Part shown: positions 6,951 to 38,669 of the stretch, in pieces | Layout of the letters: each line of letters begins with the position of its first letter | Position numbering within the stretch: the stretch's first letter is position 1 | From: a virus | Direction: 5' to 3' (one strand) | Length of the DNA: 44,192 nt | Virus record (IMG/VR): IMGVR_UViG_3300010885_016315 | Location: 1 to 44,192 of that record | Notes under the pieces: generated by a model | Databases searched by the model: none | Seen by the model: the letters and a program-made list of their open reading frames with translations, nothing else | Told to the model about the DNA's origin: nothing | Made by a program: the position numbers and the translations under genes

Positions 6951-8506
6951 CTCTTATCGCGTTTTTGACGAGGAGCGGTATCCACGTCACGTGGTTCAGC
7001 ACGACGACCAGGACGAGTGATCTTATCTGCACTCATGCTGGCTTCGGGATCTTTGATTTTTTTCTTGGGAACTTGGTTACCAATTTCACCTACTGGACTA
7101 TCATTTTCCCCGCCACTACCTTTATAACCAAAACTAACCCGACCAATGATGCCAGTTGCCGAATATACCTTTGTAGCATCTAATTTTACAGTGCCTTTAA
7201 AATTTGGAGGGTACTTGCTAGTAAAACCTGTTACTGTATATGCATCGTTTTTATTAGACCCGTTTAAATGTAATTGAATAATGGGACTAGAATTTAAAAA
7301 TTTTAAACAAGCTTCGCCAAATTTAGGATCAGAATTAATATTCTCTGACACTCGGCGTGCTAACGCCGCCAATGCATGATATCCTATATTGTACCGTGGA
7401 TTATCTAGCTTGGCATTAATATCTGTCATTAAATTTTGGATAATTGGATTTTTGCTTGGAATATTAGTTTTAATCAATTGTTTTATTTCTTGTCCGGTTA
7501 ATTCGTCAATGATACCTTGTTGAATGCCATACACTATTGGAAAATCTACAGCACTTAACTTTCCAATTTCTTCAATAATTTGAACTTGCTCGTTATAAGT
7601 TTTTAATAACTTAGTCAGACCTTTTTGTCGTGCAACACCCACACCATCGGAAATATTCTTGATTGATGCGGCTGCACCATCTTCACCTTTGCTAGATATG
7701 CCAATTTCTACTCCGCTTGGGTGCAATAGATAACTGTCAACTAGTCCGTTATTCTTATCAGCAGGAAAGTTAACAGTACTTCCACTATATGTGCCTTGAT
7801 CACCCAGTATATCTTTACGTGCAGCTTCTGCACCTGTTCCCATATTCATGCCTTGTAACAAGGCAATTGGCCCAATGGTTTCACCAAGATCATCTCGTAT
7901 AGCAGTGGCCATTTCTCCTACGTTTTCAAATTTGGGAAGATTGCCAGCTAATAGCTGATCCATTCCGGGACGTATTTTTTCAATTGTGTCCAGCTGGTCG
8001 GGTGTAATACCCGGACGAGTACCAATCGCTGCCACAATATCTGCAGGGCCAGCAAAAGTTGAGTTAACTGGAAATAAATCTGCAGGCTTGAGTTTGTAAT
8101 AGGCACCTTTTAAACTTACGGATTTATTAAGTTGCCACCCTCCTGGTAATTCACTATTTTTCCAGAATCCTGCCATGTCTGGTTTAATTTCATTAAAGAA
8201 TCTACCAAAATAAGTTGTTTGTCCTGGACCGGGGCCGTCAAATGTCAATATAGCAAATGCTTTACTACCGCCTGTGGGTTTATTGCTCCAAGTAATAGAA
8301 GGATATTGTTTAAATAGGTCTTGTCCTACTAGAGCCATTTCGTTGTAGTCCTTATAAGCCCCGGGCATTGAAGGAAAGTATTCGGCTTGCTTAAAGGTAA
8401 TGACTGCTGTGGGGTTATCTTTAGACCCTTGGAAAAAACTATCTCCAGCATCTCGATATAACAGCCCACGGCTTTTCTCAAGTAATATATTAATTAGTTC
8501 ACGCAT
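6947..8506 (-). CDS. phage protein of unknown function, candidate packaged protein
   Basis: A 519-residue protein that I do not recognise. It begins MRELINILLE, a short helix ending in L-x-E, the pattern of T4 capsid-targeting sequences cut by the prohead protease, followed by a largely globular body (for example FAILTFDGPGPGQTTYFGRF and HPSGVEIGISSKGEDG) and a highly charged, disordered C-terminus (from about 475, rich in K, R, D, P). A late-promoter motif (CATAAATA, 8514-8521) lies exactly 7 bases before the ATG and there is no Shine-Dalgarno, so late mRNA may be leaderless. A late-expressed, possibly encapsidated protein is an inference. Confidence 0.7.
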   Translation of the reverse strand: MRELINILLEKSRGLLYRDAGDSFFQGSKDNPTAVITFKQAEYFPSMPGAYKDYNEMALVGQDLFKQYPSITWSNKPTGGSKAFAILTFDGPGPGQTTYFGRFFNEIKPDMAGFWKNSELPGGWQLNKSVSLKGAYYKLKPADLFPVNSTFAGPADIVAAIGTRPGITPDQLDTIEKIRPGMDQLLAGNLPKFENVGEMATAIRDDLGETIGPIALLQGMNMGTGAEAARKDILGDQGTYSGSTVNFPADKNNGLVDSYLLHPSGVEIGISSKGEDGAAASIKNISDGVGVARQKGLTKLLKTYNEQVQIIEEIGKLSAVDFPIVYGIQQGIIDELTGQEIKQLIKTNIPSKNPIIQNLMTDINAKLDNPRYNIGYHALAALARRVSENINSDPKFGEACLKFLNSSPIIQLHLNGSNKNDAYTVTGFTSKYPPNFKGTVKLDATKVYSATGIIGRVSFGYKGSGGENDSPVGEIGNQVPKKKIKDPEASMSADKITRPGRRAEPRDVDTAPRQKRDKS

Positions 8507-8513
8507 AATTCAA

Positions 8514-8521
8514 TATTTATG
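8514..8521 (-). promoter_or_regulatory. T4-type late promoter box CATAAATA
   Basis: One-base variant of the T4 late consensus TATAAATA on the minus strand, ending 7 bases before the ATG at 8506. The predicted start site (about 6 bases past the box) is 1-3 bases from the ATG. Confidence 0.7.
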
Positions 8522-13660: not shown

Positions 13661-15103
13661 TTATTTTTTAACCAAACCACTTAACCGTCTTAACATGGCC
13701 AAGTCTTCACTGACAACCGGTTCGTCCATTGTAGTGTCCCCGGTTGGCTGTGCTTGTGGTTCGGGTTGGGGCGGTGCAGGTTCGGTTGGTTGAGCTTGAC
13801 TCTGCATTATTTGGATGATTTGGTTAGCTAACGATGACTCACCATTTGATGCTAACCATCCGGCTAATGTTCTACGAGCATCAGCATCGGGTCCTTGGTT
13901 GGCGGAGAGTCTACGCATTGCTACACCCAATGACTCGTCATCAATTATTCCACTAAGTGCTGCAATTGCATCTGTGCCATCAAATCCAACTGCTAAAGGT
14001 GCTTGGACTATATCTAGTAACTCAGTTTCATCATGATCGTCTGTGTCATCTTCCCAGGTGGCTTCGGTCACGTCATTGGCCCAAGACTCAAATTCTTTAC
14101 TGCCTGGGGTATCCATCTTTTGGCGATGCTTGTATGCCCGGTACACATACGGTAATGCTTCGTTAAAACGATCATCGTATATCTTTTTAACAAAACGTTC
14201 ACGTAACGATTCTTCATCAATCTCTTCGCTGGGCTCTTGTTGTATACCCATCATGCTCATCAACATTTCATGACCGCGACGACCTTGGAAACGCTTTAAG
14301 TGATCCTTAACTTCGTTATAACGATGAACGGCTGCTTCGACCATGCCGGTTGTTTCTGCATCTTCAAATGTACGATTACGCATGCTACGCACGAAATGTC
14401 GCATACTGGCCATTTCTTTGACCATTTCGTTAATTAATTCGCTACCTTCATCACCAAAGCGTCCACCGTGGCGTAAATGATTAGCGGTTGCACGAGCACC
14501 ATGCAAGTTAGTGTGGTTTAATAGGAAACGTTCGCCTAGTGGTGTTTCAACGAATACGTGTTCAATTTGTCTAGTGCGAGAACCACGGCGCTCTGGATCA
14601 ATTTGATCTTTGTGTCTAATGATTAATTTATGTGTACCAACATCACCAAAGCTCATGTGCTTGTTATTACCGTGTCCGTACAGGCGACTTTCAGTAACTG
14701 CTAGCTCGTCTTTGTCATATGTGCTGTCTGCTTTGCTTTGCTGTTTCAAATCTTTTAAATCTAAGTTGCTGCGATTGATATCTCTAACATCAAACTGTAA
14801 CATATTTCTACGTGCAAACTTACGTAAACTTCTCAAAAACTTATGCCATTCTTGCTCTTGCTCTTCATCAAGTGCTTCTGTGATATTTGAGCTAAAGTAT
14901 ACCTTCAATGTATCTTCATCAACAAGACTCATTGTTATATTACCAAAATTCTTACCATCTTCGCTAATATAATCAAAGTTAAAGAATCGAGCACGTTCAG
15001 GATCCTGCACTCGTTGGGCTTTTTCGTCGCCAATGCTTATGTTATCAAAACGGGCACGTACTTTTTCAAATAATTCGTCAGAGATTTTGTCTAATTCACG
15101 CAT
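13661..15103 (-). CDS. phage protein of unknown function, candidate head-associated
   Basis: A 480-residue protein without a family I can name. It begins MRELDKISDELFE (L-x-E at 11-13), has a charged helical middle (ELINEMVKEMASMRHFVRSM and LRERFVKKIYDDRFNEALPY), a Pro/Gln-rich linker near 430-460 (EPAPPQPEPQAQP) and ends LAMLRRLSGLVKK, sharing a C-terminal [IL]x[RW]L[AS]G motif with other proteins in this window. A late box lies exactly 7 bases before the ATG with no Shine-Dalgarno, suggesting a leaderless late mRNA. It sits between TerL and gp32. Confidence 0.72.
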   Translation of the reverse strand: MRELDKISDELFEKVRARFDNISIGDEKAQRVQDPERARFFNFDYISEDGKNFGNITMSLVDEDTLKVYFSSNITEALDEEQEQEWHKFLRSLRKFARRNMLQFDVRDINRSNLDLKDLKQQSKADSTYDKDELAVTESRLYGHGNNKHMSFGDVGTHKLIIRHKDQIDPERRGSRTRQIEHVFVETPLGERFLLNHTNLHGARATANHLRHGGRFGDEGSELINEMVKEMASMRHFVRSMRNRTFEDAETTGMVEAAVHRYNEVKDHLKRFQGRRGHEMLMSMMGIQQEPSEEIDEESLRERFVKKIYDDRFNEALPYVYRAYKHRQKMDTPGSKEFESWANDVTEATWEDDTDDHDETELLDIVQAPLAVGFDGTDAIAALSGIIDDESLGVAMRRLSANQGPDADARRTLAGWLASNGESSLANQIIQIMQSQAQPTEPAPPQPEPQAQPTGDTTMDEPVVSEDLAMLRRLSGLVKK

Positions 15104-15110
15104 AGTGTAG

Positions 15111-15118
15111 TATTTATG
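15111..15118 (-). promoter_or_regulatory. T4-type late promoter box CATAAATA
   Basis: CATAAATA on the minus strand, ending 7 bases upstream of the ATG at 15103; the same spacing and TATGCGTGAA start context occur at 8506. Confidence 0.7.
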
Positions 15119-16711: not shown

Positions 16712-17242
16712 ATGAGCCATACTCTCTTACTTAACAAAGATTACACACCAATTTCAGTGCTTCCGCTAAGTGTTATACATTGGCAGCACAGTATCAAGCT
16801 AATGTATCTAGGGCGCATTCAAGTTATTGAAACTTATCCAGACTGGATTATACACAGCGAAAAACTTGCTATAAATGTTCCCAGTGTGGCTATAACCAAA
16901 GATTATTTTAATTTCAAACGTCGAGTAAACTTTACACGATACAATATGTACTTGCGCGACTTGTATCAATGTCAATATTGCGAAGATACGTTTGATTTTG
17001 ATGACTTAACCATTGACCACGTTGTTCCAGTGAGTCAAGGTGGTCGAACAGAATGGACTAACTGCGTAACTAGTTGCAAGGCCTGTAACTGGACCAAAGC
17101 AGATAAGTCATTTATGCAGCCCGTACGTAAACCTTATCGTCCAGACTATTGGGCATTGGCTGCTGCCTGGAAGCATAGTCCGTTTAAGGTCAAAGATCCC
17201 AAATGGAATCAATACTTGGGTAGAGATCGAGCGGCTGCTTAA
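16712..17242 (+). CDS. HNH endonuclease
   Basis: A 176-residue free-standing HNH protein: zinc pairs C87/C90 (CQYC) and C122/C125 (CKAC), catalytic IDHVVPVSQGG with D102/H103, and N117 in the TNC segment, matching the HNH_5 layout. Its N-terminus (LLLNKDYTPISVLPLSVIHW) is also typical of this widespread phage/bacterial family. It lies on the opposite strand to the surrounding late genes, divergent from TerL with an 11-base gap, and converges on the small gene at 17239 with a 4-base overlap. It may be a homing-type endonuclease or packaging-linked nicking enzyme. Confidence 0.85.
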   Translation: MSHTLLLNKDYTPISVLPLSVIHWQHSIKLMYLGRIQVIETYPDWIIHSEKLAINVPSVAITKDYFNFKRRVNFTRYNMYLRDLYQCQYCEDTFDFDDLTIDHVVPVSQGGRTEWTNCVTSCKACNWTKADKSFMQPVRKPYRPDYWALAAAWKHSPFKVKDPKWNQYLGRDRAAA

Positions 17243-17448: not shown

Positions 17449-17528
17449 TAGTGTTCACCGTAAGGTACTACTGGACGATCGTCGTCCGGATTATTCCCCG
17501 GATCCTTTGCATTTGCTTCTTTTTGCAT
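17448..17528 (-). CDS. 26-residue overlapping micro-ORF
   Basis: On the minus strand an ATG at 17528 opens a frame encoding MQKEANAKDPGNNPDDDRPV followed by VPYGEH and a stop that overlaps the next ATG as TAATG. The first half overlaps the end of the nuclease gene in another frame. The acidic, Pro/Asp-rich content and exact stop-start coupling suggest a real leader or small protein, but no clear Shine-Dalgarno is present. Confidence 0.4.
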   Translation of the reverse strand: MQKEANAKDPGNNPDDDRPVVPYGEH

Positions 17529-18303
17529 TGGTTAACGCTCCAAAGTCTACAGGCCATTCACCGCCAACTGGTAATTCTTGTGCGCCAGCCGGAAAAGCAA
17601 AAGTGACACCGGCCTTTTGTTGTATTTGTGCAATGCTGGCACGTACCCGAGTTAAGTCGTTGCCTTGGCCACCTTCGTGTTTGAAGTACCATCCGGCCAT
17701 TTGTCGAGTATTTTGATTAACAACAATCTTGTAGAATCCTGTAGGAACCACAACACCGTTACCAATCTTCTTGTCTGTGGCTGTGTTGTAAATGCCACCA
17801 ACATAAATGTTGTATGTTTGATTGGTTTGTACTGCCCAACCACGTACTGATGTTTCTAACAGTTTCCAAATGCCACGATTCAATCCACCTAACTGTGGAT
17901 ACATGTTGGTCATCAAGAATGATTCATACTCTACTTGTTGGTCCCAGCTTAGATCGCCGTCGGGTGCGGCATGACCTTTATCATATCCTGTACCTGCATA
18001 GTCATCAGGTCGTGCACCACCTCGAACGCTGGCATCTGCCACAAACGCATTTGTTCTTGGCCAGCATCCTAGTGCATTAGCCGGAGTTAATGTGTATGTT
18101 ACATAAACAGGAATCTTAGCAGCAGCATCGTAACCGACAAAATATGCACGACGGCAAATTGGCGTTACAGATTTGCCTGCCACTTGTGGGAAACCATATG
18201 GGTTATGTACTGCACATTTTTCTGGAGCCAATGGCGCTGTTTGATCCCAAGCAAATACCGAACTGCTTGCTGCTAATAATAAAATTGAAAACCATTTTTT
18301 CAT
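17491..18303 (-). CDS. secreted DNA/RNA non-specific endonuclease (NUC1 family)
   Basis: A 270-residue nuclease with a clear Sec signal peptide (MKKWFSILLLAASSSVFA, cleavage predicted before W19). The beta-beta-alpha-metal nuclease signature is YDKGHAAPDGDLSWD with general-base H111, followed by TNMYPQLGGLNRGIWKLLE giving the metal-binding N142 and E150. The usual DRGH is DKGH here. Four cysteines (C30, C50, C80, C265) fit disulfides in the periplasm. A phage late gene for an exported nuclease could salvage nucleotides, degrade host or competitor DNA, or aid lysis. A perfect late promoter lies upstream in a hairpin loop. Confidence 0.88.
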   Translation of the reverse strand: MKKWFSILLLAASSSVFAWDQTAPLAPEKCAVHNPYGFPQVAGKSVTPICRRAYFVGYDAAAKIPVYVTYTLTPANALGCWPRTNAFVADASVRGGARPDDYAGTGYDKGHAAPDGDLSWDQQVEYESFLMTNMYPQLGGLNRGIWKLLETSVRGWAVQTNQTYNIYVGGIYNTATDKKIGNGVVVPTGFYKIVVNQNTRQMAGWYFKHEGGQGNDLTRVRASIAQIQQKAGVTFAFPAGAQELPVGGEWPVDFGALTNAKRSKCKGSGE

Positions 18304-18312
18304 TGAAAATCT

Positions 18313-18349
18313 CCTGTTAAGTAGTTATATTTATATCATAATTACCAGG
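18313..18349 (-). promoter_or_regulatory. hairpin with late promoter TATAAATA in loop, SD in 3' arm
   Basis: Minus strand: arm CCTGGTAA (18342-18349) can pair with TTAACAGG (18313-18320) with one G-A mismatch. The 21-base loop contains a perfect TATAAATA (18328-18335). The 3' arm overlaps the ribosome site AGGAG. Read-through RNA would hide the ribosome site; RNA started from the late promoter (near 18322) lacks the 5' arm. Confidence 0.6.
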
Positions 18350-18968
18350 TCATCTTTAACCATTTTTTAACCATATCATTAGTAAGTCCTGTAATTTCTG
18401 CAATTGACTTAATTGTTAAATTTTGGGATCTATACTGGTGTATAATATCATACTGTTCCTTAGTAATTTGTCTTCTCGCTAGTCCTCTTTGCCTACATTG
18501 TTCTACAGTCCATTTTACCCAAGGTTTTTTCATTCCTTTATGGCTGTCTGATATTTTTTCTTTTGTTTTTGTTGATTGTGTTCGTTGTTTAAATTTTTTA
18601 ATTGTGTCTGGGGATTTCTTTACACCCTTTAATTTTCTGCTTCTAGCATCGTTGGATTCTTTACTCATCACTATACCATTGTTGCCATCTCCCCCAAGTG
18701 TTGAGTTATATCCGTCATAATATGAATTGTATTTTTCTATATACAAAATTTCTTTATTTTTTGCCTCAACTGCATTTAGTGCTACATCAATTACCTCTGT
18801 TTCCCAGGCATTAACACCATATTTCCTAATAGCGTTATAAAATTTTCTATTTTTGCTTTCTTTCAAAGCTTGTTTGTAGTGTTGCTGCCAGCGATTATTA
18901 AGATTTTGTTTAGTGTATCCAATATAAGAAAGTTTGGTAATTGTGTTTGTAATTTTATAAATTATCAT
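18342..18968 (-). CDS. GIY-YIG homing endonuclease with NUMOD and HTH DNA-binding modules
   Basis: A 208-residue enzyme. The GIY-YIG domain runs to about residue 95: IYK at 3-5, YIGYT at 15-19, catalytic R26, and KEILYIEKYNS (E73 as the metal-binding candidate). A NUMOD3-like basic region follows (SRKLKGVKKSPDTIKKFKQR, about 114-133) and a C-terminal helix-turn-helix (LTIKSIAEITGLTNDMVKKW). Structure matches I-TevI/Seg-type free-standing homing endonucleases. AT-rich relative to neighbours. Its leader has a hairpin holding a late promoter, as in T4 homing endonuclease genes. Confidence 0.9.
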   Translation of the reverse strand: MIIYKITNTITKLSYIGYTKQNLNNRWQQHYKQALKESKNRKFYNAIRKYGVNAWETEVIDVALNAVEAKNKEILYIEKYNSYYDGYNSTLGGDGNNGIVMSKESNDARSRKLKGVKKSPDTIKKFKQRTQSTKTKEKISDSHKGMKKPWVKWTVEQCRQRGLARRQITKEQYDIIHQYRSQNLTIKSIAEITGLTNDMVKKWLKMTW

Positions 18969-18974
18969 AAAAAA

Positions 18975-19002
18975 TCCTGTTTAACTTATTTATCAAACAG
19001 GA
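18975..19002 (-). promoter_or_regulatory. perfect 8-bp hairpin with late promoter in loop, SD in 3' arm
   Basis: Minus strand: TCCTGTTT (18995-19002) pairs perfectly with AAACAGGA (18975-18982); the 12-base loop is GATAAATAAGTT containing the late box (18987-18994). The 3' arm is the ribosome site of the GIY-YIG gene and is followed by six T then ATG (18968). Transcription from the late box would start about 18981, inside the loop end, freeing the SD. It could also act as a rho-independent terminator for upstream RNA. Confidence 0.75.
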
Positions 19003-19023
19003 CCTTTAATTTAATAATGTCAC

Positions 19024-19536
19024 TCACCAAGCTCTACATGACCAATATCTGGCTTTAGTCCGAGGTCCGGGATTATCACAATGGTGTCTAGCTCTAAAAC
19101 TTTTTCTTCTTGCCGGAATTGACTTTTTAATTTTCATGTTAGGATCGCCAAAGTTAACTTTCTTCACATTGCCAGTCTTAGGATCACGGACGTAAACTTT
19201 AGATTTGGCTACATCGCCTTTCATGGGCTTGCCTAGCGGAACGTTACGTCCGTGATATTCAGCTTCGTCAATATCTCTATCGTTACCACCGTGTATGGGA
19301 CTGGTACTATCTCTAGCAACAGGCATGTTTGAATCTTCCAATAGATAACCAATGCGGTCAAATAATTTTAGCATGGTATCATCTGCTTCAATTACTACGC
19401 CATCCGCAACAACATCAATGACTGTAGTTTCTATTACAAATTCTTCCCTGGCGATTTCTAATTCAAATACATCACCAACAGCGGGATTGTGTTCCATTAA
19501 TTCTGTTTCTAATAAATAGTCTTTAAAAGATTTCAT
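19024..19536 (-). CDS. phage protein with conserved FGDPNM...RARHHC tail (DUF5872-like)
   Basis: I start at the ATG at 19536 (overlapping the preceding stop as TAATG), giving 170 residues; a TTG two codons upstream is less likely. It begins MKSFKDYLLE, a helix ending L-x-E. The C-terminal part VNFGDPNMKIKKSIPARRKS, RARHHC and TKARYWSCRAW matches a small basic, Cys/His-containing domain seen in many marine phage proteins, probably metal- or nucleic-acid-binding. The central VVIEADDTMLKLFDRIGYLL is globular. A packaged head protein is plausible. Confidence 0.72.
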   Translation of the reverse strand: MKSFKDYLLETELMEHNPAVGDVFELEIAREEFVIETTVIDVVADGVVIEADDTMLKLFDRIGYLLEDSNMPVARDSTSPIHGGNDRDIDEAEYHGRNVPLGKPMKGDVAKSKVYVRDPKTGNVKKVNFGDPNMKIKKSIPARRKSFRARHHCDNPGPRTKARYWSCRAW

Positions 19537-19748
19537 TACCAATTTTCCTTAATACTGGACTGCACTTCTGCAGCATCGTCTGTAACAAAAGCGGGCAGCG
19601 ATCGAATAGGGTTACCGTTGGTGTCGAGCATTAATCCTGCCTGTTGTAGCATACTGATTACATAATGCAATTTTTGCTCAAGTTGACGACAGTAATTAGC
19701 CTGATCTTCTTCGGCACTATTATCGTACTGTTCTAGATAGACAGACAT
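19536..19748 (-). CDS. small hypothetical protein
   Basis: A 70-residue protein with a coiled-coil-like helix (EEDQANYCRQLEQKLHYVIS). No recognised domain. It abuts the upstream 749-residue gene with no spacer and couples to the downstream gene by TAATG. Confidence 0.65.
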   Translation of the reverse strand: MSVYLEQYDNSAEEDQANYCRQLEQKLHYVISMLQQAGLMLDTNGNPIRSLPAFVTDDAAEVQSSIKENW

Positions 19749-27346: not shown

Positions 27347-27354
27347 TATTTATG
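27347..27354 (-). promoter_or_regulatory. T4-type late promoter box CATAAATA
   Basis: CATAAATA on the minus strand overlapping the stop of the gp16-like gene, followed by ACAGGAT and the ATG at 27324. Confidence 0.7.
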
Positions 27355-27844
27355 TGTTTTTGTTCTTTTGGAGAATCTGTTCTAGTAGAGCATTACGATC
27401 TAGCACAATGCCCTGCCCGTCAACTGCACGATTCCCCGGATCATCTTTGCTCATCTGATGATCCAATCTAGCCTTTTGTAACTGCAAGCTGACCATGCGT
27501 AGCTTCTTGTCCATTTTGGCAGTTTTAGCGGTAATAGCATGCCCTAGTAGCGTACCAGCTGTTTGAAATACTACTCCGCCAAATCTGGGATCCATGTTCA
27601 TTCCAAGATCCATTAGATCTTCAAATTTTGCTTTGGCCAAATCTGCAAGCTCGTCCATTTCCGCATCGCTGGCTTCTAGGTCGCGCACTGTGGGCAATGC
27701 TAGATCAATTTTATCTATAGCGTCATTGACTTGGGCTATTATGTCTTGTTGGTCTTGTATAGTTTGAAATGCTTCGCTGGTTTCTGCTGAGGCATCTGCA
27801 GGAACTTCAGGAAGATCAAATAGTTCGGCTAGTTTCTTGGTCAT
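27350..27844 (-). CDS. 16: terminase small subunit (gp16-like)
   Basis: A 164-residue helical protein whose centre (DPRFGGVVFQTAGTLLGHAI then TAKTAKMDKKLRMVSLQLQK) has the layout of DNA-packaging small subunits of T4-like phages, where paired helices form the DNA-recognition ring that regulates gp17. The N-terminus is acidic (KLAELFDLPEVPADASAETS). It lies directly downstream of the gp4-like nuclease. In T4, gp16 is adjacent to gp17; here about 10.6 kb of other genes separate them. Confidence 0.75.
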   Translation of the reverse strand: MTKKLAELFDLPEVPADASAETSEAFQTIQDQQDIIAQVNDAIDKIDLALPTVRDLEASDAEMDELADLAKAKFEDLMDLGMNMDPRFGGVVFQTAGTLLGHAITAKTAKMDKKLRMVSLQLQKARLDHQMSKDDPGNRAVDGQGIVLDRNALLEQILQKNKNT

Positions 27845-27852
27845 GCTCGTAT

Positions 27853-28290
27853 TTACCGAGCTCGACCTTGGTGGAAGATATCATTTTCTGTTAGCACACG
27901 AAAACGCAATCCATTTTGGCCGCACCAGGCTTGTGCTGCTTGCCACTTGTACATGTTTAGTACTGCTGCTGCTTGATCACGCGGACTTTTGCCTGCTGCT
28001 TCTAGTGTGGTTTGTTTAGTGGGTTTAATTTCTATTAGCTCGCCGTACTTTTCACCGTTTTTGTTTACATACATGATCATGAAATCAGGTACGTAAATTG
28101 TATTACGATTTGTAAACGGATTCTTATACGGTATATGTATTGCTTCACTAGCCCATTGTAGCACAGCTGGATTCTCGTCACAGAATCGCATAAAGCTGTG
28201 TTCCCAGCTACTGCGGAATTGAGGAACTTTTTTGCCTACGTATTTGTCAGCATTGACAATTTGATAAAAGCCGTTAGCGTATTTGCCCAT
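27853..28290 (-). CDS. 4: head completion nuclease (gp4-like, TnsA-like fold)
   Basis: A 145-residue protein matching T4 gp4-type head-completion proteins, which have a PD-(D/E)xK/TnsA-like nuclease fold: SSWEHSFMRFCDENP (E30), IYVPDFMIMY (D70) and GELIEIKPTKQ (E85, K87) supply the acidic/lysine active site. It likely trims or seals the packaged DNA end before tail joining. Overlaps the upstream gene by one base (TAATG) and is followed within 8 bases by the gp16-like gene. Confidence 0.8.
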   Translation of the reverse strand: MGKYANGFYQIVNADKYVGKKVPQFRSSWEHSFMRFCDENPAVLQWASEAIHIPYKNPFTNRNTIYVPDFMIMYVNKNGEKYGELIEIKPTKQTTLEAAGKSPRDQAAAVLNMYKWQAAQAWCGQNGLRFRVLTENDIFHQGRAR

Positions 28291-31313: not shown

Positions 31314-31321
31314 TATTTATC
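31314..31321 (-). promoter_or_regulatory. T4-type late promoter box GATAAATA for gp19
   Basis: GATAAATA on the minus strand, 19 bases before the tail tube ATG at 31294, followed by a TAGGAG ribosome site. Confidence 0.75.
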
Positions 31322-35756: not shown

Positions 35757-36164
35757 TCAAACGCCGTATTTGTTCTTTTTAGGTTTAGCAACAATGCTGG
35801 TTTTATTAACGCTTGGAACTTCTTCGGATCGGCTATTTGACCATTTTTGTGCTCGTCCAGCACCCACTTGCGCCGCTGCGGCATTGACAATATCTTGTTC
35901 AACTTGAGTATATGTGCTTATCAATGGATCTCCACCGATCCAAGTATCTGCTGCTTGTTTAGTGGGATAATCAGGTGCACCAGCTAGCGCAATCCCCATA
36001 CGATAATTCAAATATGCACTACCAGTGGATTGATTTAAGTTTGGGTGAGTTTGTGCATTTTGCAATGCTGCTTTAGCCTCATCACCTATAGGGTGCGTAC
36101 CTCCTTTAGCGTGGGTTCCTTGTCCTGTTGTAGTACCTTCGTTTACTATCTCGTGAATTTTCAT
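35757..36164 (-). CDS. phage head-region protein with capsid-targeting-like N-terminus
   Basis: A 135-residue protein starting MKIHEIVNE (V-x-E rather than L/I at the key position), then a Gly/Thr/His-rich stretch and the segment STGSAYLNYRMGIALAGAPD followed by TKQAADTWIGGDPLISTYTQ, and a basic tail (KPKKNKYGV). I do not recognise a characterised family, though similar proteins occur next to neck genes in marine phages. ATG overlaps the upstream neck-protein stop. Confidence 0.65.
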   Translation of the reverse strand: MKIHEIVNEGTTTGQGTHAKGGTHPIGDEAKAALQNAQTHPNLNQSTGSAYLNYRMGIALAGAPDYPTKQAADTWIGGDPLISTYTQVEQDIVNAAAAQVGAGRAQKWSNSRSEEVPSVNKTSIVAKPKKNKYGV

Positions 36165-37084
36165 TATCCAATTACCCAGGTCAAAGGCTGTGAGCCGTCA
36201 ACAAAATCTTTAAGTTGTTGTTCTAATTCCTGCATTTCTGTTGCTGCTTCTGATTTTAAACTGGCCCCGTTAAGTTGCGTACCGCCTTGTGGTCCAGCAA
36301 TACTGGCAAACTTTTCACGAGCTTCACCAAGTATACGCTTGGCAAAACTGTACGAATATTCTTGTATCCACGGAAATGCTTGATAATCATTTAATAACAT
36401 ACTGTCAGGTTTATAATTGTATATTTGTAGCATACAATCTTCCATTTGATCTTCATGTACATGAGTGCCAGCAAACGGCATTTTACGTATTAGAACTAGC
36501 TTCTTGGTTGTTTTATTAAATGTAAAGTTCAGGAATCCCCCAAACATCTTCATACTTAATTTTTGATAGTCAACAAATAATTCATAATTTAGTAGACCAC
36601 CAACACGCCCTGCAACCAGCATGTAGGTGTTCAAGTAACCCGAACTAAACGGTTCAAATTGACTAGCAGTTGTACCTGTCACTGACCCAATACCACGACG
36701 AAATGCAGCACGAACATCCATGACTTCGTTAGGCAGTATGTATTCTTGTGTTTCGGGTTTGAGTTTCAGAAAGGCATAGCTTTCTTCTTGGCTGTTGGCT
36801 GCACGTTGGCGATATTTAAGCAAGGCTTGCTTAATGGCCATTTCGTAGTGTTCTTTATCTAGTTCAACATCAACTATTCCGTCAGCTAAACGTAAGCGAA
36901 TATAGTCAACGATTTCAGTGCGTTTTGTTTGTGCTACTTCAAGTTCTGGAGCGGCAATTTCTCCCAGCGTTTCATTGGGATCATAGGCTATGTGCCCAGT
37001 TCCGGTTCCAGTGGTTGCATTCCAAAGACTGTCGGTAATGATTACGCCGTTAGCGTAAAAGTTAGTAGTATCTGCTGTAGCCAT
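36164..37084 (-). CDS. 13: neck protein (gp13-like)
   Basis: A 306-residue protein, nearly the same length as T4 gp13 (309). The pattern DYIRLRLADGIVDVELDKEH, LLKYRQRAANSQEESYAFL, EYILPNEVMDVRAAFRRGIG, LLNDYQAFPWIQEYSYSFAK and FASIAGPQGGTQLNG is typical of neck/head-completion proteins of marine T4-like phages. It probably forms part of the collar between portal and tail. Its leader has a perfect 8-bp hairpin with a late box in the loop and the ribosome site in the 3' arm. Confidence 0.72.
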   Translation of the reverse strand: MATADTTNFYANGVIITDSLWNATTGTGTGHIAYDPNETLGEIAAPELEVAQTKRTEIVDYIRLRLADGIVDVELDKEHYEMAIKQALLKYRQRAANSQEESYAFLKLKPETQEYILPNEVMDVRAAFRRGIGSVTGTTASQFEPFSSGYLNTYMLVAGRVGGLLNYELFVDYQKLSMKMFGGFLNFTFNKTTKKLVLIRKMPFAGTHVHEDQMEDCMLQIYNYKPDSMLLNDYQAFPWIQEYSYSFAKRILGEAREKFASIAGPQGGTQLNGASLKSEAATEMQELEQQLKDFVDGSQPLTWVIG

Positions 37085-37088
37085 ATAT

Positions 37089-37119
37089 GGTGTCCTAGTA
37101 ATGTATTTACCAGGACACC
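37089..37119 (-). promoter_or_regulatory. 8-bp hairpin with late box in loop, SD in 3' arm (neck gene)
   Basis: Minus strand: GGTGTCCT (37112-37119) pairs perfectly with AGGACACC (37089-37096). The 15-base loop holds the late box GGTAAATA (37104-37111). AGGA in the 3' arm is the ribosome site 8 bases before the ATG at 37084. Late RNA would start near 37098, without the 5' arm. Confidence 0.7.
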
Positions 37120-37125
37120 CGGGAG

Positions 37126-38316
37126 TTAGTTGATTCGGAGCAGTACAGTATCTTCGTTCATGCGTCCGTTGCCAATTGTTTCTGTGGCTTTGATATCCTC
37201 TAAGAATTTACGTAGCTGAATCTTACTGGCTTTTGAAAATTCTTTGAGCTTTTCTTCGGGTTTACGTAGTGTTTTGCCTACGGATTTTGCTAGGTCAAAA
37301 CCGGTTAAACTGGTGCCTTTAATACCTAGTGGACCAGTCAAACTGTCGGCAACGTACTTGTACAGTTTACGAGTTTTAGAATTGTACACCCATAGTTCTT
37401 GTGCTCCGATAATATCCACAGGATTAACACTCACTAGTTTTAGCGTCTTTTCTTCACGCATGTACTTGAGCTTGCTAACCAGTTTCTCTTTGTTAGGAGC
37501 ACGTTTTACACGGGCTTTTTTAGTTGCTTTCTTGACACCACGATACTGTTCTAGTGCATCTAGTACAGCATCTAAAAATGCATAGTGACGTTTATAATCT
37601 GCTGCTTTGTAATGCTTATATGACTCAACATGATCTTCAAACAACTTGCCCTGTGCTGCACCTAGCTCTGCTTTACGGGCACTGAACAGTTCTACAAATT
37701 TATTAATTTGACTTTGCGGAACGGTGTTAGCAGTCAAGTAGTCAAAGGCTCGGGGATCAACGGTCCCGCCTAGTACAACTTCGTCATACAGGCCTTCAAA
37801 ATGTGCCAAGTGCTCGCTTGTTTTTTCGTTAAGCCTGTCCTGAATAGTAGGCGCTTTTACTGTAACTTTTTCAGCAGCTGGCATAGGTGCGCCGGTTGAA
37901 CTTTCTACTATATCTCCGTCGTCCTGTAGCAATGCGATTTCAATACGCTCTCGAAGATAGCCAAGTTCCTTTTCACGTAATGGCATGCCTTGCCGATTGG
38001 CCATGAGCAAGCCGTATGCTGTCATCGGAACTGCGCGATCCGGGCTGCGGATGAATGCACTCACTTGTGATTTTGTGTATTTGTTATCCTGCATCCATTT
38101 AACCAGATGCTTTTTAAGATCTTTTTGGCTGTAATAGTAATTGTAATACGAAAAACTTTTACGCAAGAAGTGATCGAATTCATCTTGACTCATTGCCGTT
38201 GCACGTTCAGTATCCCAAACTGGCTCACGTCCGGTATACTTTTCATCAGAGAACATGGGATCTCGCGATTTCTTGGCTACTTTTTTGGGTGCTTTTATGC
38301 TTTGTTGTAATGCCAT
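37126..38316 (-). CDS. phage protein of unknown function, basic
   Basis: A 396-residue protein. N-terminal segment (about 1-30) is Lys-rich; a charged helical region follows (SQDEFDHFLRKSFSYYNYYY; KKHLVKWMQDNKYTKSQVSA), and the C-terminal half is Lys/Arg-rich (KKATKKARVKRAPNKEKLVS) then a globular VDIIGAQELWVYNSKTRKLY-type part. No catalytic motif recognised; basic stretches suggest nucleic-acid contact. Similar sized proteins occur in marine T4-like phages without known role. It lies downstream of the sigma70 promoter at 38641-38669, so it may be expressed early. Confidence 0.65.
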   Translation of the reverse strand: MALQQSIKAPKKVAKKSRDPMFSDEKYTGREPVWDTERATAMSQDEFDHFLRKSFSYYNYYYSQKDLKKHLVKWMQDNKYTKSQVSAFIRSPDRAVPMTAYGLLMANRQGMPLREKELGYLRERIEIALLQDDGDIVESSTGAPMPAAEKVTVKAPTIQDRLNEKTSEHLAHFEGLYDEVVLGGTVDPRAFDYLTANTVPQSQINKFVELFSARKAELGAAQGKLFEDHVESYKHYKAADYKRHYAFLDAVLDALEQYRGVKKATKKARVKRAPNKEKLVSKLKYMREEKTLKLVSVNPVDIIGAQELWVYNSKTRKLYKYVADSLTGPLGIKGTSLTGFDLAKSVGKTLRKPEEKLKEFSKASKIQLRKFLEDIKATETIGNGRMNEDTVLLRIN

Positions 38317-38351
38317 TTTTTGCTCCTTGTTACCTAGAATATAACATTATA

Positions 38352-38633
38352 CTACTCTTCGGGTTTTGTGTCAAGTAGTGTTGCAAACATGAGCCATTGT
38401 TGTAATTCTAGTAACTCTTGTTTACATTTAGCTAACTGTTCGTTGTGCTTTACATAATTGCCCGTTCTACGGGCATCAATTTCTAATTTACTCAACTCTG
38501 TTACACTATTATACAAGTTATCGCGCATTTTGTGCAGTTGACGCTGATGTTGCCAATTATGCAACACTTGCACATTACGGCGCAGTTGCTGATCTAGCAA
38601 CGCCCAGTCGTCTAAAGAATTGAATTCACGCAT
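38352..38633 (-). CDS. small coiled-coil protein with predicted leaderless mRNA
   Basis: I start at the ATG at 38633 (MREFNSLDDW), giving 93 residues; earlier in-frame starts lie inside the -35/-10 promoter elements. The protein is a Gln/Leu-rich coiled coil (LLDQQLRRNVQVLHNWQHQR; QLAKCKQELLELQQWLMFAT). The -10 box ends 7 bases before this ATG, so mRNA should begin at or next to it, with no ribosome site. Function unknown. Confidence 0.65.
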   Translation of the reverse strand: MREFNSLDDWALLDQQLRRNVQVLHNWQHQRQLHKMRDNLYNSVTELSKLEIDARRTGNYVKHNEQLAKCKQELLELQQWLMFATLLDTKPEE

Positions 38634-38640
38634 AACCATA

Positions 38641-38669
38641 ATTATACACTTTACGCTATTTTCTGTCAA
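38641..38669 (-). promoter_or_regulatory. perfect consensus sigma70 promoter
   Basis: Minus strand: TTGACA (38664-38669), 17-base spacer, TATAAT (38641-38646): exact consensus at optimal spacing. The predicted start is near 38634, adjacent to the ATG at 38633. It would drive the small coiled-coil gene and perhaps the 396-residue gene downstream early in infection. Confidence 0.85.

Follow-up and report, generated by a model that had tools for sequence, protein, structure and literature searches.

A putative start-site-dependent translational switch at a homing endonuclease gene of an uncultivated T4-like phage

How can a mobile gene that resides among phage structural genes be translated independently of the transcripts passing through it? 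The window analysed here, the entire 44,192-base virus record IMGVR_UViG_3300010885_016315, is a fragment of a T4-like phage genome. It carries genes for UvsX, a gp32-like SSB, terminase, tail sheath and tube as well as neck and head-closure proteins, and it belongs to an uncultivated clade of jumbo T4-like phages. Within its minus strand lies a homing endonuclease gene (Table 1), whose start is preceded by a hairpin that encloses a promoter-like motif. We consider this hairpin a switch that makes translation of the endonuclease dependent on the start site of its RNA, and assign this reading a probability of roughly 0.7.

The open reading frame at 18968..18342 (-) matches PF01541 (GIY-YIG; E 2e-7) and NUMOD3, and it is assigned to the homing endonucleases of phrog_314 with an E value of 3e-28. 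The predicted protein thus combines a GIY-YIG catalytic domain with a modular DNA-binding motif, and the conserved residues of the GIY-YIG family are present in its aligned relatives.

Table 1. Positions of the features discussed, with the evidence for each
Feature	Position	Strand	Evidence
Core hairpin TCCTGTTT-GATAAATAAGTT-AAACAGGA	18975..19002	(-)	sequence; arm-swap test
Shine-Dalgarno (SD) AGGA in 3' arm, 6 nt before endonuclease ATG	18975..18978	(-)	sequence
Extended sense-RNA stem, 16 bp including four G-U pairs, loop AAAUAA	18970..19007	(-)	RNA fold
Late promoter GATAAATA (credible) inside hairpin	18987..18994	(-)	same sequence before tail-tube gene; motif class of T4/cyanophages
Predicted late transcription start	18981	(-)	T4 late-promoter spacing
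Free-standing homing endonuclease gene, GIY-YIG + NUMOD3, 208 aa	18342..18968	(-)	Pfam and phrog_314
Gene just upstream, conserved 3' end (..KARYWSCRAW*) marking insertion site	19024..19542	(-)	relatives of endonuclease follow same gene end
DNA/RNA non-specific endonuclease gene downstream of insertion	17491..18303	(-)	PF01223, E 5e-38
Second putative late promoter TATAAATA behind endonuclease, serving next gene	18328..18335	(-)	sequence
Neck gene, T4 gp13 family (phrog_211)	36164..37084	(-)	T4 gp13 matches same family
Second promoter hairpin GGTGTCCT-GGTAAATACATTACT-AGGACACC before neck-gene ATG	37089..37119	(-)	fold; arm co-evolution
Consensus sigma-70 promoter TTGACA-17-TATAAT before gene 37126-38316	38346..38374	(-)	12/12 match
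Short hairpin GCTCG-GTAAATA-CGAGC directly before ATG of gene 27350-27844	27845..27861	(-)	arm co-evolution

The hairpin and the promoter in its loop

On the minus strand, positions 19002..18975 read TCCTGTTT-GATAAATAAGTT-AAACAGGA, followed by TTTTTT and the ATG at 18968. The core stem TCCTGTTT/AAACAGGA is perfect over 8 bp, the loop contains GATAAATA and AGGA lies in the 3' arm, exactly as the original prediction had described. The 8-bp core accounts for only part of the structure in RNA, where the stem extends to 16 bp with four G-U pairs (19007..18970): the upstream AAAGGU pairs with the U-tract, and the outer helix takes in the U and G of the endonuclease AUG, leaving the start codon partly paired. 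The sense-RNA leader folds at -21.0 kcal/mol (z -5.04), and none of 200 shuffles is as good. The antisense strand, folded as a strand control, forms 8 bp only, the G-U extension pairs being confined to the sense RNA. Since these extra pairs are impossible on the complementary strand, they point to a function in the sense RNA. Structure, strength and strand bias, together with the recurrence of the design elsewhere, are computed directly; the use of the promoter, its start site and a block of translation at the endonuclease leader are inferred.

A perfect inverted repeat across a promoter might also serve as a DNA operator bound by a protein, perhaps by the endonuclease itself as an autorepressor, and a precedent exists in I-TevI, which represses its own late promoter (PMC2988022). 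The confinement of the additional G-U pairs to the sense RNA argues against such a role, as do the arms of the neck-gene hairpins described below, which vary in sequence yet stay complementary, a pattern not expected of a fixed protein site. The similarity between the leader and the putative homing site is not significant (P 0.57-0.73), on which ground the autorepressor operator was rejected, and we regard an operator of any kind as highly improbable.

The motif in the loop recurs at late genes of the window. The tail-tube gene at 31319 is preceded by an identical GATAAATA, the sheath gene and the downstream nuclease gene are preceded by TATAAATA, and ATAAATA stands before the tail sheath and tail tube genes and before genes 26701, 28875, 13661 and 17491. 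In T4-like cyanophages, NATAAATA has been described as the late promoter (PMC2984593). Across 2 Mb of related loci, TAAATA keeps a sharply defined position ahead of start codons, which control hexamers do not. Of 11 large contigs harbouring relatives of the endonuclease or of window genes, 7-8 encode late sigma factors of the gp55 family, the window itself being a 44-kb fragment. Judged by these sequence comparisons, the late promoter proposed for the loop is credible. If T4 spacing applies, the late start would fall 6 nt after TAAATA, at 18981, the same value near the loop end that had been predicted originally.

Two further contexts of the motif were observed. TAAATA located 4-7 nt ahead of ATG defines a large separate gene class (27855..27844, 15116..15103 and 8519..8506 (-) in the window; related loci L022-L181), in which an SD is absent from 129 of 133 non-redundant genes, compared with 31 of 153 where the distance is 17-24 nt. 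T4 spacing would put the late mRNA starts of the 4-7 nt class at or beside the AUG, rendering them leaderless, and there is no such class among the T4 genes checked. Moreover, between 19749 and 23991 (-), ATAAATA(C) occurs within the coding ends of two adjacent genes and encodes a common peptide, ESIN(T/K)E..DIL.L(A/S)G.

Start-site dependence, chance and termination

According to the proposed mechanism, RNA entering from upstream would carry both arms and form the 16-bp stem, thus concealing the endonuclease gene's SD together with most of its start codon, and RNA begun at the internal late promoter (approximately 18981) would be devoid of the 5' arm and translatable. The endonuclease would then be made solely from its own late promoter, regardless of surrounding transcription. 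The predicted folds agree with the notion that upstream RNA sequesters AGGA and that late transcripts are missing the 5' arm: in upstream-initiated RNA the SD is paired, as is most of the AUG, and in the RNA predicted to start at 18981 on T4 geometry the 5' arm is absent and the SD open. The accessibility of the start region is approximately 0.09 in read-through RNA versus 0.55 in the predicted late RNA, and the former value is the lowest of 254 late promoters tested, tied with locus L094. The resulting gain of approximately 0.46 exceeds the 0.05-0.12 of ordinary tail genes, some gain being expected in any case, as the late RNA is shorter by construction.

Pairing of this kind could in principle arise by accident, if a late promoter and an ordinary AACAGGA ribosome site happened to lie next to a complementary upstream flank. 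AACAGGA after TAAATA is indeed common in the window (genes 26701 and 17491), and about 0.5% of arm-permuted promoters give perfect stems of at least 8 bp. Yet the arm pairing of the endonuclease hairpin (-16.1 kcal/mol) ranks first among 225 comparable promoters with ordinary leaders in related phages, none of 3356 swapped arm pairs is equally strong, and the z score of the leader fold is in the region of -5. Within the window, perfect stems of at least 8 bp enclose two of 13 promoter-like TAAATA sites, versus none of 21 other TAAATA sites (longest stem 6 bp). Accidental pairing is therefore the least probable of the explanations considered, and a very improbable one.

A second function of the hairpin has to be weighed, namely that of an intrinsic terminator, where hairpin and U6 end the upstream late RNA before the endonuclease and the enclosed late promoter restarts transcription. 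The TTTTTT follows directly after the stem, and the hairpin alone (-12.2 kcal/mol) is about as strong as the phage's likely terminators (-10.5 to -13.9). However, the core stem is A-T rich, with only 3 G-C in 8 bp, and has a loop of 12 nt (6 nt with the G-U pairs), unlike the G-C-rich terminators with T7-T8 runs before the tail genes; furthermore, the T-run doubles as the spacer between SD and ATG, and it is absent after the stem in most neck-gene hairpins. The terminator scan appears to miss A-flanked terminators, and its silence carries no weight as evidence. We consider termination an unlikely explanation of the hairpin, but both roles, termination and masking, could coexist.

Under the preferred reading, that of a translational switch, it matters which RNA is masked. 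The original prediction assumed early read-through RNA, an assumption that the surroundings do not bear out. Between the sheath gene and the endonuclease there is no sigma-70 site of at least 11/12 on the minus strand, a sigma-70 scan of the region at 9/12 yields no more than shuffles do, and the genes upstream of the endonuclease are structural and have late promoters. With late structural genes lying upstream, the RNA subject to masking is probably late and polycistronic rather than early, so that the hairpin may set the endonuclease apart from the late operon instead of postponing its expression. Of the proposal that the endonuclease is silent until late infection, the late-only logic is well supported by the comparison with T4 and by co-evolving counterparts of the device at related genes; the timing lacks support.

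The leaders of T4 I-TevI, I-TevII, I-TevIII and segB and of Aeh1 mobE harbour a late promoter within an SD-masking hairpin (reviewed in PMC2988022 and PMC3014915). The window leader resembles them in belonging to a homing endonuclease gene, in the T4-type late promoter within an SD-masking hairpin and in a predicted late RNA without the 5' arm. In contrast, their genes lie in early or middle transcription units, and several are intron-encoded, whereas the window endonuclease is free-standing, lies in a cluster of late structural genes, has another insertion site and comes from an uncultivated jumbo T4-like clade. T4 e and soc are also late genes with a late promoter inside an SD-masking structure, but they are not mobile; for e, a translation block on early RNA is documented (PMC3014915). 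The arm-pairing test, run on T4, gives -13.2 kcal/mol for e, -15.1 for I-TevII, -12.2 for I-TevIII and -8.3 for I-TevI. By these measures e, soc and the I-Tev genes stand out in T4, while a few ordinary late genes (53, inh, 4) are also fairly strong. The likeness to I-TevI, e and soc that had been suggested thus holds for both layout and computation, and by analogy the endonuclease leader is best filed as one that works like these T4 leaders, its site and its clade both being new. A mode of control hitherto known from few T4 genes would thereby extend to a large uncultivated phage clade.

The same layout at the neck gene and in related phages

The hairpin before the neck gene folds at -24.9 kcal/mol (z -3.88), and neck-gene orthologues keep it around TAAATA while the sequences of the arms change. 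The orthologues' own arms pair at -15.4 kcal/mol versus -9.0 kcal/mol for exchanged arms (0 of 20,000 permutations). These figures stem from the arm-swap test, since MAFFT, applied to all neck leaders together, sets the arms of divergent groups out of register, and pair counts from that alignment come out too low. At the short hairpin of gene 27350-27844 the arms co-evolve as well (GCCGA/TCGGC, GCACG/CGTGC).

With regard to transcription, the neck gene is a nearer parallel to T4 e than the endonuclease gene. Gene 37126-38316 ends 41 nt upstream and reads into the neck gene, and its sigma-70 promoter (38374..38346) matches at 10-12/12 in most orthologue leaders. Given this consensus promoter, early transcripts should extend into the neck gene, where early transcription is probable. 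Two 12/12 sigma-70 promoters (TTGACA-17-TATAAT) are present in this region, at 38374..38346 and 38669..38641 (-), and one is conserved before a phrog_11903 gene in most relatives.

In a collection-wide scan, which served as an independent test, the palindrome CCTGTT..TAAATA..AACAGG was set against an arm-exchanged control, which places the SD-like letters in the 5' arm. Among the matches listed, of which only the fractions are comparable, the palindrome adjoins the start of an open reading frame at 43 of 84 distinct sites versus 3 of 89 with the arms exchanged. Of these 43 hairpins, again among the matches listed, 32 belong to gp13-like neck genes, making this structural gene the commonest user of the device, and two to homing endonucleases, a GIY-YIG/NUMOD3 gene (L289; leader -28.4 kcal/mol) and an HNH-like gene (L335). 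Co-evolving arms and strand-specific placement beside start codons constitute comparative evidence of selection on the design.

The endonuclease relatives present a mixed picture. The closest one (L002, 65% identity) lacks hairpin and promoter alike, and hence the endonuclease hairpin has no covariation of its own. In the relatives L010/L198 and L014/L209, by contrast, TAAATA hairpins of their own are present whose 3' arm includes the AUG, and in an alignment of the different endonuclease leaders the hairpins are not obviously homologous. We see about even odds that a late promoter within a hairpin masking the ribosome-binding site is a general device of large T4-like phages, selected on the gp13-like neck gene and independently adopted by several GIY-YIG and HNH endonuclease lineages; translation would thereby depend on the RNA start site, even within late operons, whose masked RNA is late as well. 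In the relative at locus L013 (2515-2560), CCTTGG/CCAAGG arms flank a late promoter of the gene that precedes the endonuclease, and the 3' arm contains AAGGA.

The insertion site and the rear of the cassette

The endonuclease cassette sits between two genes whose junction is uninterrupted in relatives. The upstream gene, whose DNA end is conserved, also precedes the relatives of the endonuclease, and in empty-site relatives it adjoins the downstream nuclease gene. The site is occupied in 31 and empty in 31 of the fetched loci, which were partly fetched through the endonuclease, so that these numbers do not represent a frequency. Occupied and empty sites, PF01541 plus NUMOD3 and the phrog_314 assignment link the window gene to the Seg/NUMOD3 class of free-standing GIY-YIG endonucleases. 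Most relatives at this site differ from it in that they begin at the upstream stop codon or shortly behind it, without a promoter of their own, a promoter hairpin being present in some only; such starts suggest translational coupling to the upstream gene. The late cluster also contains an HNH endonuclease gene on the other strand (16712..17242 (+)), and homologous DNA is found in the empty-site relative L021 as well.

The second late promoter TATAAATA is absent at the empty sites L021/L102, L108 and L125. In L108 and L125 the empty junction reads ..AAAGGTCAATT-ATGAAAAAATGG, the latter being the start of the downstream nuclease gene, and the window keeps ..TTAAATTAAAGGTC, followed by the cassette. 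Compared by eye, these sequences indicate that the insertion probably separated the SD of the nuclease gene from its ATG, and that the rear of the cassette would supply TATAAATA and CAGGAGA as the gene's new promoter and ribosome site. The arrangement suggests how a mobile endonuclease may enter a late gene junction, silence its own read-through translation and give the displaced gene a new promoter. The promoter behind the endonuclease also lies between imperfect arms, CCTGgTAA and TTAaCAGG (18335..18303 (-)), and the ribosome site at the rear, TTAACAGGAGATTTTCAATG, is similar to that at the front, TTAAACAGGATTTTTTATG; a promoter-SD module might seem to have been duplicated around the cassette.
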